A stretch of 45,504 bases of DNA from Lachnospiraceae bacterium (GTDB taxonomy: Bacteria > Bacillota > Clostridia > Lachnospirales > Lachnospiraceae), in assembly GCA_017626325.1 (NCBI GenBank), contig JAGAIZ010000039.1:1-45504 (forward strand). Direction: 5' to 3'. Below, in pieces: positions 14,630 to 43,004 of this stretch; position 1 is the first letter of the stretch, and each line of letters starts with the position of its first letter. The notes under the pieces are model-generated. The model had not been told where the DNA came from. It made no database searches and saw nothing but the letters and a program-made list of their open reading frames with translations. Position numbers and translations under genes: made by a program.

Positions 14630-14974
14630 ATGAAACTATATGGAACAGAAAACAATGAAGTAATAATGAAAGAACTGGGGAAACGGATTCAGGATATGAG
14701 AATCGCCATGAATCTGACGCAGTCTGAAATGGCGGAGCGTTCCGGGGTATCTCTTCGGACGGTATGCAGGATTGAGAAGGGCGAGAGCGCCAGAGTCGAA
14801 AGCGTCTTAAATGTGCTCAGGATTCTGCAGGCACTGCCGAATCTGGAGCTGTTGGTGCAGGAGCAGGTATTAAAGCCTACGGAACTGGTGGACCATGGCA
14901 AGAAACCAAGCCGTGTTTCGTCTGGCCGGAGAACGCGGGAGACCGAATGGATCTGGGGGGATGAGAAAGAATGA
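14630..14974 (+). CDS. hipB: HipB-like XRE-family antitoxin
   Basis: 114 aa. Residues about 13-70 are a Cro/CI-type helix-turn-helix: LGKRIQDMRIAMNLTQSEMAERSGVSLRTVCRIEKGE. The C-terminal tail is basic and polar and would be flexible. As in known HipB proteins, it should bind operators as a dimer and hold the HipA kinase in check. The start at 14630 is preceded by GAGAGAGG; a TTG at 14600 in frame is less likely. Its stop overlaps the hipA start (ATGA). Four matching palindromes upstream suggest autoregulation. Confidence 0.88.
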   Translation: MKLYGTENNEVIMKELGKRIQDMRIAMNLTQSEMAERSGVSLRTVCRIEKGESARVESVLNVLRILQALPNLELLVQEQVLKPTELVDHGKKPSRVSSGRRTRETEWIWGDEKE

Positions 14975-16257
14975 TTACTGCGGAAGTATATTTATGGGGG
15001 ACGCGGATTGGCGTGGCGGCCCAGGAAAGCCCGGACGCCGTTCCGATGTTTAACTATGATGAGAAATTCCTGAAAAGCGGGATAGAGGTTTCTCCAATCG
15101 TCATGCCGCTGTCAGAGAGAGTATATTCCTTTCCGGCGCTGCCTGAAAATACGTTTCATGGATTGCCGGGGCTTCTGGCGGATTCCCTGCCGGATAAATT
15201 CGGAACGAAGCTAATCGAAAGATACCTGTCAGAGCAGGGCAGGGATATCCGGTCCTTTTCGGCGGTGGAAAGGCTTCTGTATACGGGGAAACGGGGCATG
15301 GGTGCGCTTGAATATGTACCGGCCAGGGATTATGGCGAAGGGAAAGACTGCTCGGTGGATATCAATGCGCTGGTAGAGCTTGCGTCTGATATCCTGACGG
15401 AGCGGGAGAACCTTCATGTGGGCAAAGGCGAGCATGCGATGGAGCAGATTATTAACGTGGGAACTTCCGCAGGAGGCGCCAGAGCGAAAGCGGTTATCGC
15501 CTGGAATCCGTCTACGGGAGATTTCCGTTCCGGTCAGATTGACGCGGGAGAAGGATATGAGTACTGGCTGATTAAGTTCGACGGAGTCAGGAATAATAAG
15601 GATAAAGGCGATAAGGAAGACGGGACTGCATACACGAGAATAGAGTACGCTTATTACCTGCTGGCGCAGAAGGCGGGCATTGTCATGAACGACTGCAGGC
15701 TGTATCAGGAGTCCGGCAGATACCATTTCATGACGAAGCGCTTCGACAGAGGGATAAACGGCGCGAAGCTTCATATGCAGTCGCTTGGCGCAATCGCGCA
15801 CTATGATTATAATATGCCCGGAGCATACAGCTATGAACAGGCGGTATCTGTGATAAACAGTCTGGAATTGGGGCAGGCCGCCGTAGAGCAGATGTTTCGC
15901 CGGATGGTTTTCAACATATTGTACCGCAATCAGGACGATCATGTGAAAAATATCTCCTTCCTGATGGACAGACGCGGCAACTGGAGTCTTGCACCTGCCT
16001 ATGACATTACGTATGCGAATGATGCGGACAATAAGTGGCTTGCCAGACATCAGATGAGCCTGAATGGTAAAACAGAGGGATTTGAAACCGACGACTTCTA
16101 TGCAGGCGGCAGGCACATGAATCTGACGAAGCGAAAAGTGGATAAAATAGTCGAACAGGTGCGTTCTGTTATACAAGAGTGGGAGGACTGCGCCGGTCTT
16201 GCTTATCTGGATGAAGAAAGCATGGAGACGGTCAGACAGCAGTTTATCAGACTGTAA
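14971..16257 (+). CDS. hipA: HipA-family serine/threonine kinase toxin
   Basis: 428 aa, near the usual 440. The N-terminal subdomain holds the FHGLPGLLADSLPDKFG motif (about residues 64-80). The Gly-rich loop is NVGTSAGGARAKAVI (about 165-179), where HipA proteins carry the autophosphorylated serine. The catalytic block is YRNQDDHVKNISFL, followed by the metal-binding LAPAYDITY. All key residues look intact, so the toxin should be active. HipA of E. coli phosphorylates glutamyl-tRNA synthetase and causes persistence; the target here is unknown. Its GC content is like the chromosome, unlike the AT-rich promoter region before hipB. Confidence 0.92.
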   Translation: MITAEVYLWGTRIGVAAQESPDAVPMFNYDEKFLKSGIEVSPIVMPLSERVYSFPALPENTFHGLPGLLADSLPDKFGTKLIERYLSEQGRDIRSFSAVERLLYTGKRGMGALEYVPARDYGEGKDCSVDINALVELASDILTERENLHVGKGEHAMEQIINVGTSAGGARAKAVIAWNPSTGDFRSGQIDAGEGYEYWLIKFDGVRNNKDKGDKEDGTAYTRIEYAYYLLAQKAGIVMNDCRLYQESGRYHFMTKRFDRGINGAKLHMQSLGAIAHYDYNMPGAYSYEQAVSVINSLELGQAAVEQMFRRMVFNILYRNQDDHVKNISFLMDRRGNWSLAPAYDITYANDADNKWLARHQMSLNGKTEGFETDDFYAGGRHMNLTKRKVDKIVEQVRSVIQEWEDCAGLAYLDEESMETVRQQFIRL

Positions 16258-16522: not shown

Positions 16523-16966
16523 ATGCAGGAAACAACCGGATATTATGTAGTAAAACAGAAAGCGGTTCCGGAGGTTCTTCTCAAAGTAGTGGAAGCCAAA
16601 CGGCTGGTGGAATCCGGGAAGGCGGCATCCATACAGGAAGCGGTGGATGAGGTCGGAATCAGCCGCAGTTCTTTCTATAAATACAAGGACGACATTTTTC
16701 CGTTTCATGACAACGCGCAGGGCACTACGATCACTCTGATGTTCCAGATGGATGATAAGACGGGACTTTTGTCTGACGTGCTGAAGATTATCGCGGAATT
16801 TGGCGCCAATATCTTAACGATTCATCAGAGCATACCGATTAACGGCGTGGCTTCCCTGAGTTTAAGCGTACAGGTGCTTCCTACGACCGGGGACATGTCC
16901 AGGATGATTGAGGCGATGGAAGAGAAATCCGGGGTGCATCATGTGAAGATATTAGCCAAAGAGTAG
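16523..16966 (+). CDS. ACT domain protein, PheB/UPF0735 family
   Basis: 147 aa, the family length. An N-terminal part with a helix-turn-helix-like stretch (AASIQEAVDEVGISRSSFYKYKDDIFPF, about residues 32-59) is followed by an ACT domain (TITLMFQMDDKTGLLSDVLKIIAEFGANILTIHQS). ACT domains bind amino acids, so the protein may be a regulator sensing an end product. The start at 16523 is supported by GGGAG upstream; the frame extends to 16448. It stands first in a cluster with homoserine dehydrogenase and aspartate kinase. Its TAG stop is also the first three bases of the structured element that follows. Confidence 0.87.
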   Translation: MQETTGYYVVKQKAVPEVLLKVVEAKRLVESGKAASIQEAVDEVGISRSSFYKYKDDIFPFHDNAQGTTITLMFQMDDKTGLLSDVLKIIAEFGANILTIHQSIPINGVASLSLSVQVLPTTGDMSRMIEAMEEKSGVHHVKILAKE

Positions 16967-17166
16967 GTTGAAAAATCACTCTGATGAGCTGATTGTTTCA
17001 AAAACTGAGTAAACTCAGTTGACACTTTGAGTCAGAGTCTCAAAGTGTCTTGATCGCAGTCGGAAATAAAAGTATTTCTTCGAAAAACTTTGAAATTTCC
17101 GACGCGTGTTCAAGAGTATGCTTATCAGCAAACTCAGAAATAAATTGCTCTGACATGGAGGAGTAG
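16964..17166 (+). ncRNA. Structured leader element, copy A (before homoserine dehydrogenase)
   Basis: The element shares blocks with 41804-41943. Hairpin P0: TTGAAAAATC (16968-16977) with GATTGTTTCAA (16991-17001). A hairpin specific to this copy: AACTGAGT/ACTCAGTT. P2: GACACTTTGAG (17021-17031) with CTCAAAGTGTC (17039-17049), loop TCAGAGT. P3: GTCGGAAAT (17059-17067) with ATTTCCGAC (17095-17103). GTCAGAG (17031-17037) is the exact complement of CTCTGAC (17148-17154), a possible pseudoknot; GGAGGA follows at 17157-17162. The hom start codon is 70 bp further on with its own ribosome binding site. No known RNA class was recognised. Confidence 0.72.
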
Positions 17167-17236: not shown

Positions 17237-18442
17237 ATGATTCAAATTGCGGTATTAGGATACGGTACGGTGGGAAGCGGCGTTGTGGAGGTTATCGAGA
17301 CCAACAAGGCGGATATCAATAAGAAAGCGGGAGAAGAACTGAATGTCAAATACATTCTGGATCTGCGGGATTTTCCGGGCGACCCTTATGAGAGCAAGGT
17401 GGTGCATGATTATAATATCATCTTAAATGACCCGGAGGTAGCGATTATCTGCGAGACCATGGGCGGTCAGAAGCCGGCGTATGATTTTACGAAGCAGGCG
17501 CTGCTTGCGGGCAAAAGCGTGTGTACCTCCAATAAGGAGCTGGTGGCGGCGCATGGGCCGGAGCTGATTCAGATCGCGAAGGAGAATCACTGTAATTATC
17601 TGTTTGAAGCAAGTGTTGGCGGCGGTATTCCTATTATCCGTCCGCTGAATTACTCTCTGACGGCGGAGAAAATCGATGGAATTACCGGTATTCTGAACGG
17701 AACTACGAACTATATACTGACGAAGATGGACAAGGAAGGCGCGGACTTTGAAGAAGTTCTGAAGGAAGCCCAGGAGAAGGGCTATGCGGAGCGCAATCCG
17801 GAAGCCGATGTGGAAGGCTACGATGCCTGCCGCAAGATTGCTATTCTTTCATCTTTGATGTGCGGCAAGAATGTAAAATATGAAGATATCTATACGGAAG
17901 GCATTACGAAGATTTCTGCGGCGGATTTCAAGTACGCAAAGCAGATGAACAAGTCTGTGAAGCTGCTTGCCATGAGCAGAGATACGCAGGACGGTTTCTT
18001 TGCTATGGTAGCGCCTTTTATGATTTCCAGGGAGCATCCGCTCTATAGTGTCAGCGATGTGTTCAACGCGGTATATGTGCACGGCAACATGCTGGGCGAC
18101 TCTATGTATTACGGCCGCGGCGCGGGCAAGCTGCCCACGGCAAGCGCGGTGGTTTCTGATGTGGTGGACTGCGCGAGACATCAGGGTAAGACTATTATGT
18201 GCTTCTGGGACGCGGAGGATGTGCAGGTGGCGGACATCGGAGAGGCGAAGCGTAAGTTTTTCGTGAGAGTGAAGGCTGATCAGAGAGAGGCGGCGATGGA
18301 GGCCTTCGGTTCTCTGGCGGAGGTCAATGTAGGGCTTACAGACGAGTTCGCTTTTATGACCCAGGTGCTCAGCGAGAAGGAATTTGATGAGAAGCTTGAG
18401 AAAGCCGGCGGATGTATCAACAGAATCCGTATGATGGCATAA
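17237..18442 (+). CDS. hom: Homoserine dehydrogenase
   Basis: 401 aa. The N-terminal Rossmann domain has IAVLGYGTVGSGVVEVI; the catalytic region has TSNKELVAAHG, FEASVGGGIPIIRPL, GILNGTTNYILTKM and the signature AERNPEADVEGYDACRKIAILSSL with the active-site Asp and Lys. It reduces aspartate semialdehyde to homoserine, the branch toward threonine, isoleucine and methionine. The C-terminal 80 residues look like a short or degenerate ACT domain (KFFVRVKADQR...EKLEKAGG), below the about 430-aa full type. AGAGGAT precedes the ATG. The structured leader lies between it and the ACT protein gene. Confidence 0.96.
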   Translation: MIQIAVLGYGTVGSGVVEVIETNKADINKKAGEELNVKYILDLRDFPGDPYESKVVHDYNIILNDPEVAIICETMGGQKPAYDFTKQALLAGKSVCTSNKELVAAHGPELIQIAKENHCNYLFEASVGGGIPIIRPLNYSLTAEKIDGITGILNGTTNYILTKMDKEGADFEEVLKEAQEKGYAERNPEADVEGYDACRKIAILSSLMCGKNVKYEDIYTEGITKISAADFKYAKQMNKSVKLLAMSRDTQDGFFAMVAPFMISREHPLYSVSDVFNAVYVHGNMLGDSMYYGRGAGKLPTASAVVSDVVDCARHQGKTIMCFWDAEDVQVADIGEAKRKFFVRVKADQREAAMEAFGSLAEVNVGLTDEFAFMTQVLSEKEFDEKLEKAGGCINRIRMMA

Positions 18443-41803: not shown

Positions 41804-41943
41804 TAGGTTGAAAAATCACACTGATGTGCAGATTTTTCAACCGACAATTTGAGTCAGAGCCTCAAATTGCCTTGATCGCAGTCGGAAATCTGATATTTCC
41901 GACGCGTGTCATCGCAATAAATTGCTCTGACATGGAGGATTAG
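41804..41943 (+). ncRNA. Structured leader element, copy B (before ilvE)
   Basis: Shares sequence blocks and fold with 16964-17166. P0 is a perfect 12-bp hairpin, GGTTGAAAAATC (41806-41817) with GATTTTTCAACC (41831-41842), inner CACA/TGTG. P2: CAATTTGAG (41845-41853) with CTCAAATTG (41861-41869), loop TCAGAGC. P3: GTCGGAAAT (41881-41889) with ATTTCCGAC (41895-41903). GTCAGAGC (41853-41860) is complementary over 8 bases to GCTCTGAC (41924-41931); GGAGGA follows at 41934-41939. The ilvE ATG is 40 bp downstream with a separate ribosome binding site. Confidence 0.75.
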
Positions 41944-41978: not shown

Positions 41979-43004
41979 ATGGAGAAGAAAAATATTGACT
42001 GGGCAAATCTTGGATTCGCTTATCAGGAGACGGACAAGAGATTTGTGGCAAACTATAAGAATGGCGCATGGGACGAAGGAGCGCTTACCTCTGAGGCAAA
42101 TATTACGATTAACGAGTGCGCGGGAGTATTCCAGTATGCGCAGACATGCTTCGAGGGCTTAAAGGCATATACGACAGAGGATGGTCACATCGTATGCTTC
42201 CGCCCGGACTTAAATGCACAGCGTATGGAAGATTCCTGTAAGAGACTGGAGATGCCTGTATTTCCCAAGGATCGCTTCGTGCAGGCGATTAATGATGTGG
42301 TAGCGGCCAATGAGGCGTTTGTCCCGCCTTACGGTTCCGGCGCGACTCTGTATATCCGTCCTTATATGTTTGGCAGTTCCGCAGTAATCGGCGTAAAGCC
42401 TGCGGAGGAATATCAGTTCAGAATCTTTACCACGCCGGTAGGCCCTTATTTCAAGGGCGGTGTGAAACCTTTGACTATCAAGGTAAGTGATTTCGACAGA
42501 GCGGCTCCGCATGGCACGGGTCATATCAAGGCCGGTTTGAATTATGCCATGAGCTTACACGCTATCGTAACGGCCCATGAAGAGGGCTATGACGAGAATA
42601 TGTATCTGGATGCGGCTACCAGAACGAATGTGGAAGAGACAGGCGGCGCGAATTTCCTGTTTGTAACGAAAGACAATAAGGTAGTAACGCCCAAGTCCGG
42701 CAGCATTCTTCCTTCTATTACAAGACGTTCTCTGATGGTAGTTGCGAAGGAATATCTGGGCTTAGAGGTAGAGGAAAGAGAAGTACCTTTTGAAGAAGTA
42801 AAAGAGTTCGCAGAGTGCGGTCTGTGCGGCACGGCGGCAGTAATCTCACCGGTAGGCAAGATTGTGAACCACGGCGAGGAAATTGCATTCCCAAGCGGTA
42901 TGAGCGAGATGGGACCGATTACCAAGAAGCTGTATGATACGCTGACAGGTATCCAGATGGGCCGGATCGAAGCGCCTGAAGGATGGATTCATGTGATTAA
43001 ATAA
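41979..43004 (+). CDS. ilvE: Branched-chain amino acid aminotransferase
   Basis: 341 aa, PLP fold type IV. Recognisable: GVFQYAQTCFEGLKAY, FRPDLNAQRMEDSC, YIRPYMFGSS, the PLP lysine in GTGHIKAGLNYAMS, NVEETGGANFLFV, SILPSITRRSLM and CGTAAVISPVGKI. It makes the last step to isoleucine, leucine and valine, or starts their breakdown. AAAAGGAGTAGAGGA precedes the ATG. Its 270-bp leader has a promoter and the structured element shared with hom, which suggests common control of two genes of the isoleucine route. Confidence 0.96.
   Translation: MEKKNIDWANLGFAYQETDKRFVANYKNGAWDEGALTSEANITINECAGVFQYAQTCFEGLKAYTTEDGHIVCFRPDLNAQRMEDSCKRLEMPVFPKDRFVQAINDVVAANEAFVPPYGSGATLYIRPYMFGSSAVIGVKPAEEYQFRIFTTPVGPYFKGGVKPLTIKVSDFDRAAPHGTGHIKAGLNYAMSLHAIVTAHEEGYDENMYLDAATRTNVEETGGANFLFVTKDNKVVTPKSGSILPSITRRSLMVVAKEYLGLEVEEREVPFEEVKEFAECGLCGTAAVISPVGKIVNHGEEIAFPSGMSEMGPITKKLYDTLTGIQMGRIEAPEGWIHVIK

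Follow-up and report, generated by a model that had tools for sequence, protein, structure and literature searches.

In the window (the whole 45,504-nt stretch of Lachnospiraceae DNA that was analysed), the homoserine dehydrogenase gene hom and an ilvE-type aminotransferase gene are each preceded by a copy of the same folded sequence element (Table 1). A HipA-like kinase gene (PF07804, PF13657), at positions 14971-16257, immediately precedes the ACT/hom pair. In the hom copy, the opening triplet TAG (16964-16966) doubles as the stop codon of the upstream ACT-domain gene. At locus L069, a copy (1501-1640) sits between two genes resembling a toxin-antitoxin pair, and the upstream frame there seems to end in the element's TAG.

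Table 1. Positions of the element copies, their predicted parts and the adjoining genes in the window, with a shorter relative found at other loci
Feature	Position	Strand	Evidence
Element copy before hom, full length, modified	16964..17166	+	blastn; R1 match; sequence reading
Extra hairpin AACTGAG-TAAA-CTCAGTT, hom copy	17003..17020	+	sequence reading
P2 hairpin, hom copy; loop 17031-17037 forms the pseudoknot 5' strand	17022..17048	+	helix backed by covariation
P3 hairpin, hom copy, 17060-17067 with 17095-17102; longer loop variant	17060..17102	+	covariation
Pseudoknot 3' strand CTCTGAC, hom copy	17148..17154	+	sequence, covariation, pseudoknot test
Element-borne Shine-Dalgarno-like GGAGGA, hom copy	17157..17162	+	sequence reading
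hom, homoserine dehydrogenase	17237..18442	+	PF00742, PF03447
Element copy before ilvE, canonical full length, subfamily A	41804..41943	+	blastn; R1 match 41804-41942, 146.8 bits
P1 hairpin, ilvE copy, UGAU apical loop	41806..41842	+	alignment, covariation
P2 hairpin, ilvE copy; loop 41854-41860 pairs in the pseudoknot	41844..41870	+	alignment, covariation, pseudoknot test
P3 hairpin, ilvE copy, with outer CGC/GCG extension	41877..41906	+	alignment, covariation
P4 hairpin GCAA/TTGC, ilvE copy	41914..41925	+	alignment, covariation
Pseudoknot 3' strand, ilvE copy	41923..41931	+	covariation, pseudoknot test
Element-borne Shine-Dalgarno-like GGAGGA, ilvE copy	41934..41939	+	sequence reading
ilvE-type aminotransferase	41979..43004	+	PF01063
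Shorter relative AAGATTGAAAATTAAAATTTTCAATC...	L092 left flank; L326 ~18247; L379 right flank		

The hom copy differs from the canonical form in an extra hairpin, lengthened loops in P3 and P4 and a longer stretch between these two hairpins; its P4 can still pair, across the longer loop. The R1 covariance model recovers it as 17001-17165 (64.9 bits), with P1 reported apart as a fragment at 16969-17000. The extra hairpin recurs in four other copies (L008, L010, L011 and L030). In the ilvE copy, the 3' strand of P4 overlaps the pseudoknot strand, and P4 and the longest form of the pseudoknot therefore partly exclude each other. The hom copy ends 70 nt before the ATG of hom (17237), so that its GGAGGA is not the immediate ribosome-binding site (RBS) of this gene, and nearer bases resembling a Shine-Dalgarno (SD) sequence are present. 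The ilvE ATG (41979) lies 35 nt past the element and also has its own nearer SD-like bases. Unlike most copies of the family, the two window copies thus lie 35-70 nt from the starts. They are ordinary family members, which probably do not set the translation of hom and ilvE, and regulation of these genes by their element copies is the least likely reading of the finding.

A first-pass annotation of the window had reported that the hom and ilvE leaders share blocks of sequence. The blocks are where it placed them, and the sharing is beyond chance, as blastn with the ilvE copy finds the hom copy (E=3.1e-15 and 2.7e-6). The three hairpins that it described as kept, P1 (its 'P0'), P2 and P3, are all present. 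The compensatory swaps are real, with CAC/GTG against CTC/GAG inside P1 as well as swaps in P2, and they recur across copies. The P2 loop GTCAGAG (17031-17037) is fully complementary to CTCTGAC (17148-17154), which adjoins GGAGGA, and the pseudoknot proposed from this match is real, covaries across copies and lies beside the SD. The structure drawn from the two-copy comparison thus stands, but dozens of other copies share it, so that the two copies had sampled a family.

In a blastn search of its own genome (G000, a 3.1-Mb draft of which the window makes up one entire contig, C20), the ilvE copy gives 63 matches, some of which are pieces of one copy. The copies of this genome fall into at least three sequence subfamilies, in which many helix letters differ and pairing is kept. 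The R1 covariance model gives 65 matches in the same genome at E<=1, 29 of them above 55 bits; the weaker matches include P1 fragments and opposite-strand P1 matches, and not all are separate copies. The sites are many and unrelated, in agreement with the 'dispersed structured repeat' that had been named as an alternative. At E<=0.01 and with stricter filters, R1 finds matches in the own genome, in 29 of 36 same-genus genomes and in one of 24 genomes from other families of the order. This last genome (G043) has 14 matches, which may reflect lateral transfer; the other 23 sampled genomes of other families have none. Matches per genome range from 103 in G031 to 10 in its sister G099 and two in G094. 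In GTDB genomes, an exact P1 pattern matches at least 115 stretches. Among the 80 of these records listed, most are labelled Lachnospiraceae or Acetatifactor, and Clostridiales, Roseburia, Eubacterium, Lachnospira, Bacillota and three Bacillus sp. are also represented. A search of IMG/VR viral contigs for phage carriage, with one exact P1 pattern, gave no match. A shorter relative (Table 1), seemingly without P3 and with a similar SD and ATG context, is found in G031 and G099.

The two window leaders have no match in Rfam 15 at gathering scores, and the only matches below gathering appear at relaxed E-values (best E 0.062 and 0.066); the earlier view that no known class fits is supported as far as Rfam families go. 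In 20 loci from several subfamilies the element was likewise unmatched in Rfam, with only a T-box and a 6S RNA elsewhere in L193. Among the titles and starts of abstracts listed in literature searches, none describes such an element, which does not prove its absence from print.

The covariance-model search and covariation test that the first-pass annotation had suggested reveal a family spread across Lachnospiraceae with covarying helices. Four hairpins and a pseudoknot are maintained across copies by covarying changes. In alignment A2 (15 own-genome copies, with the proposed structure), 97.9% of cells are paired, and the pairs changed on both sides number 17 with the full pseudoknot and 19 with P4. 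None of 500 shuffles reaches these values on four of five measures; on the fifth, which counts pair types, 240 and 336 of 500 do. When the partner is slid by 1-3 columns, pairing falls to 33-45%. Alignment A3 has 96 distinct rows, from 97 matches in 91 chosen loci (64 of the 80 listed P1-pattern loci and 27 others). Here 97.5% of cells are paired, both sides have changed in 33 of 40 pairs, and none of 500 shuffles reaches any of the five measures; the rows are aligned to the model, a fit that favours pairing, and P1-pattern loci were chosen by P1, so that conservation of P1 there is partly ascertainment. Outside the model, the pseudoknot forms at least six contiguous base pairs (G-U allowed) in 80 of the 97 copies, with a mean score of 17.97 against 14.60 (sd 0.30, maximum 15.73) in 5000 re-pairings. 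At least five base pairs are found in 88% of true and 69% of re-paired cases, and the latter value is high because the motif is shared among copies.

The P1 apical loop repeatedly carries UGAU, a sequence that many copies of A3 also have in the linker before P3 and that may be a binding signature. A hammerhead-like CUGAUGA in P1 was considered and rejected, as inspection by eye shows CUGAUGU in other copies and simple hairpin pairing of the strands.

Wobble cells in A3 bear on the question of whether the fold acts as DNA or as RNA. In P1, G-T and A-C are rare and about equal (10 vs 9), and A-C is in excess in P3 (G-T:A-C 4:18) and P4 (3:14). Over all nested helices the totals are 34 and 49, with no pointer to sense RNA. 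These counts are as for a palindromic DNA repeat, in which pairing matters in DNA only and RNA folding is a by-product. Such a repeat is nonetheless an unlikely explanation of the family, given the sense-strand bias in the pseudoknot (56:12) and in P2 (17:8), counts in which the cells are not independent since copies share descent.

The relation of the element to genes was determined from a flank set of 144 distinct rows. These come from 73 of 106 and 54 of 64 matches and 20 own-genome copies (147), minus three with a left flank too short or repeated; weak, contig-cut, split and opposite-strand matches are left out. Of these rows, 142 have enough downstream sequence for a placement count. An ATG frame of at least 50 codons begins within -6 to +40 of the model end in 114 of them, against 22 of 142 on the opposite strand and 31% at random same-strand points, and the ATG is at the same offset (+1) in 75 of the 142 copies. 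Among the 28 copies without an ATG frame, seven have a GTG or TTG frame only. The copies are strongly oriented relative to the unrelated genes downstream. The first-pass annotation had held that many copies at random sites, in both orientations and with no covariation, would mean a plain dispersed repeat; the copies are instead oriented, located at start codons and covarying.

The placement also involves an SD sequence carried by the element. Where a copy has both an exact GGAG and an ATG, their spacing is 6 nt in 58 of 82 cases, and in a crude scan of native genes GGAG is found 6 nt before the ATG in 49 of 302. The left flank tends to have G-rich SD-like bases at -6 to -3 (logo of 79 copies). 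Among the 64 distinct copies of G031, an ATG or GTG lies exactly at +1 in 49 and within -3 to +5 in 59. Of these 59 start triplets, 18 lead frames of fewer than 50 codons, five with a stop as the second codon, and some of the 18 (L092, L397) have a longer frame that begins a few bases on. The ATGs with short frames or immediate stops argue that the motif is at least partly a DNA target and not a by-product of genes. Long frames are over-represented, with 41 of the 59 G031 sites against 240 of 839 non-coding AADNATG sites in G099 (binomial tail 9e-11), in a comparison where the G099 gene calls are crude and not every copy fits the exact motif. Either a target preference for the SD or survival of those insertions that keep translation would explain this excess.

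The 114 proteins encoded downstream are varied, with 13 similar pairs at E<=1e-5, six of them above 60% identity. Genes read from the N-termini include hisS, mutS, pyrG, proC, cdd, gltB, argC, atpC, an engB-like gene and ABC transporters. A few genes carry copies in more than one species, namely hom (the own genome and two relatives), proC (three) and cdd (two); these cases count against the dispersed-repeat reading. At the hom locus, two of 29 relatives (L262 and L264) carry a match. Remnants are seen by eye in L247, L255 and L257, and others, such as L268, have an ordinary SD and no element. The main proposal of the first-pass annotation, a cis-regulatory RNA for genes of the aspartate-to-isoleucine route, is thus not borne out, given the varied downstream genes and the two of 29 hom loci with a match. 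An amino-acid riboswitch or T-box was rejected on the varied gene context together with the lack of an Rfam match. Four other genomes have a different-looking repeat before hom, AGTGTGAGAAGAACTTCTAA with a GAAGAAGTT partner in L254 and L256 and similar sequences in L246 and L250, which may represent a second family with the same habit.

A translational cis-regulator of a more general kind, either a riboswitch-like or a protein-binding leader, would work by letting a signal choose between two pairings of the pseudoknot strand CUCC, with the P2 loop (SD free) or with GGAG (SD hidden). The pseudoknot covaries and abuts the SD, and its wobble ratio is as expected for sense RNA, in cells that are not independent. 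In nested folding of 136 copies, computed without the pseudoknot and with no shuffled control, the SD has a mean unpaired probability of 0.32 and pairs locally just upstream at P>0.5 in 25% of copies, and the bases that pair with it lie where the pseudoknot strand lies. On these predicted folds, a switch between SD and pseudoknot pairing is possible but unproved. Translational riboswitches such as SAM-II and preQ1 also have a pseudoknot next to or including the SD region. Unlike these, the element has no shared regulon, is mobile and is also found where no gene is evident. The downstream genes have no common function, precise insertions are lineage-specific, and by eye the SD and the CUCC strand covary inconsistently, with a mixed picture, while the orthologous gltB copies L151 and L185 differ by pair-breaking changes. 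A cis-regulator as the primary nature of the element is therefore very unlikely.

Evidence for mobility comes from filled and empty sites. Flanks of the 64 distinct copies in G031 were set against 1.67 Mb of the sister genome G099. Both flanks fall in one G099 locus for 12 copies, and only three of these pairs are precise, all from one genome pair (L374/L333, L100/L417 and L394/L348). The empty site has the form X-AAA-Y and the filled site X-[AAGGTTG or AAAGTTG ... GGAGGN or GGGGGT]-AAA-Y, with a net insert of 133-136 bp (136 in L374 and L100, 133 in L394). In these three pairs, which belong to the G031 subfamily, insertion is on the 5' side of AAA-N-(A/G)TG with 0 or 2 duplicated bases; in other subfamilies the motif is about TA-N-N-ATG, as judged from the logo only. 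The L374 empty site is without an SD, and the SD thus belongs to the insert. The L394 empty site already holds the 3' end of an old element, and this pair is therefore open to deletion between repeats. A fourth pair, L376/L345, keeps the left flank and the ATG and has ACTG in the empty site at the position of AAA-N-like bases in the filled site. Empty sites read by eye are AAAG-ATG (L391), AAAC-ATG (L102, mutS) and GACG-ATG (L400); in G031 all three have older element pieces to the left, and the mutS empty site shows no clear SD. To judge by these sequences, the ATG side of the target is firm, and AAA-N is a preference that is not always the native target.

Orthologous DNA of G031 and G099 is ~87% identical (first segment compared). 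Copies at unrelated sites of the two genomes are 82-98% identical, many of them 92-97%, with other subfamilies lower. Identity is 95-97% in some islands common to both genomes, and lateral transfer can therefore contribute.

With respect to target duplication, the similarity of left and right flanks is 4.96 against 4.58, a value reached by none of 5000 permutations (33 of the 144 rows were set aside as tandem), so that a short duplication is possible. The first base of the element follows the right-side base between subfamilies (T..T, A..A; z 7.1). Duplication of the SD as a target site is weakened by the L374 empty site, by a spacing of the element SD that is far narrower than in native genes and by the weak in-register identity of left and right flanks, except for the subfamily base at the left end. 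Duplication of the left dinucleotide AA was also considered. By eye, L393, L378 and L410 keep AA on the left despite AC, GC and TA on the right, and this evidence leans towards no duplication, unless these right sites have mutated. No terminal inverted repeats (TIRs) are seen by eye, as the ends AAGGTTG / TAGTGTG and GGAATGGAGG are not complementary.

Truncation and internal deletion affect many copies, and copy number varies widely between sister genomes. At the proC locus, a copy is present in G031 and a remnant left by deletion in G094, with none in G099 or G100. In G031, the 3'-end motif is found at 224 sites and the 5' motif at 107 (one mismatch allowed; reversed-pattern controls 0), an excess that is an upper bound, since the 5' pattern misses other P1 variants. 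Among the 92 3' ends in loci retrieved around full copies, 26 come from copies shortened by truncation or internal deletion, in which 17-106 nt are kept. This raises the question of whether the element is a bacterial SINE-like retroelement, with target-primed reverse transcription that leaves 5'-truncated copies. Internal deletions that keep both ends also occur, however, selection for keeping the SD gives the same asymmetry, and deletion after insertion is equally possible. In addition, a reverse transcriptase gene (RVT_1, PF00078) is found in only six of 17 genomes, including G000, G014, G029 and G031, and is absent from the copy-bearing G002, G006, G009, G035, G099 and G043. A retroelement is thus improbable.

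Like the reverse transcriptase, the transposase and recombinase genes do not follow copy number. The Y1 transposase (PF01797) is found in four of the 17 genomes and in none of the seven copy-rich drafts (G000, G002, G006, G009, G014, G029 and G031; completeness 80-99%). The IS110 recombinase (PF01548) is found in six of 17; it is present in G031, G009, G035 and G099 and absent from the copy-rich G000, G002, G006, G014 and G029. None of 24 loci fetched around Y1, reverse-transcriptase and IS110 genes has an R1 element match. The drafts are incomplete, and copies may outlive their mobiliser. A non-autonomous derivative of an insertion sequence without TIRs has nevertheless several features in its favour. 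Members of IS200/IS605 are mobilised by Y1 as single strands with hairpin ends, and their REP/PATE-type derivatives have no TIR or target-site duplication and insert beside a short motif; IS110 has a bridge RNA, a 2-nt core and a two-sided target. The element shares with these the lack of TIRs by eye, a duplication of 0-2 nt, a motif kept beside one end, a 5'-terminal hairpin, re-insertion next to an older 3' end and a first base that follows the right-side base. It differs from REP/PATE sequences in the absence of Y1 from the copy-rich drafts and in a motif that includes ATG. Descent from either type is rather doubtful, given the distribution of the two enzymes and the fetched loci without an element.

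The element is short, lacks an open reading frame, has a stable fold and is present in many copies, as are MITEs; it is also mobile, folded, non-autonomous and found at many unrelated sites, which are the characteristics of small interspersed repeats of the BOX/ERIC type as a kind. According to PMC3049150, the BOX, RUP and SPRITE repeats of Streptococcus pneumoniae are small interspersed, folded (BOX being modular) and non-autonomous, and have spread in a burst. The same paper reports transcription of BOX, TIRs and target-site duplications in BOX and RUP and over-representation of repeats between convergent genes (PMC3049150). The present element resembles BOX, RUP and SPRITE in being small, interspersed, folded and non-autonomous, and differs from BOX and RUP in its lack of TIRs, its 0-2 nt duplication, its strict orientation, its placement at start codons and the SD that it carries. 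Short length, absence of an open reading frame, stable RNA folds and many copies are also shared with MITEs, ERIC and Correia sequences (PMC10969869; PMC3049150). MITEs are defined there by TIRs and direct repeats (PMC10969869), and the element has no TIR. A term search of the main text of this MITE review finds no 'ribosome', 'Shine' or 'start codon' (PMC10969869). IS110 with its bridge RNA links a structured non-coding RNA to insertion (PMC11208160, PMC11208158). It also has a core dinucleotide. The likeness to IS110 extends to a possible target specificity on both sides; by comparison, the element has no recombinase gene of its own, and none is consistently present in the genome.

Taken together, the sequences before hom and ilvE are probably copies of a ~140-bp non-autonomous mobile repeat family of Lachnospiraceae that is folded, directed to start codons and equipped with an RBS. 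The kind is known from small interspersed repeats such as BOX, and the variant is new as far as the literature searched shows. In three sister-genome comparisons it has inserted precisely, on the 5' side of a motif that contains ATG. Insertion would push the old SD of the gene upstream, and the SD of the element, six bases from the ATG, would take over translation; an insertion at a start codon would be tolerated and survive for this reason. The fold is presumably needed by a mobilising machine, as DNA or as RNA, and the pseudoknot beside the SD may also tune translation. Perhaps, and this is put forward only tentatively, the family is a new class of mobile element whose own folded nucleic acid recognises translation start sites in DNA (SD plus N-ATG), which is moved by a yet-undescribed machine and which replaces the RBS of the target gene with a structured and potentially regulated one.

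The family is a caution against taking every conserved structured RNA upstream of biosynthetic genes for a riboswitch, since such an RNA may instead be a mobile repeat. It also makes accessible to study a non-autonomous element that has a pseudoknot and no obvious mobilising enzyme. If the proposed scheme is true, landing at start codons with an RBS of its own would offer a genome parasite a natural means of spreading without loss of the genes that it hits. In these gut bacteria, where a single genome can have about a hundred matches, it would rewrite the leaders from which tens of genes are translated.
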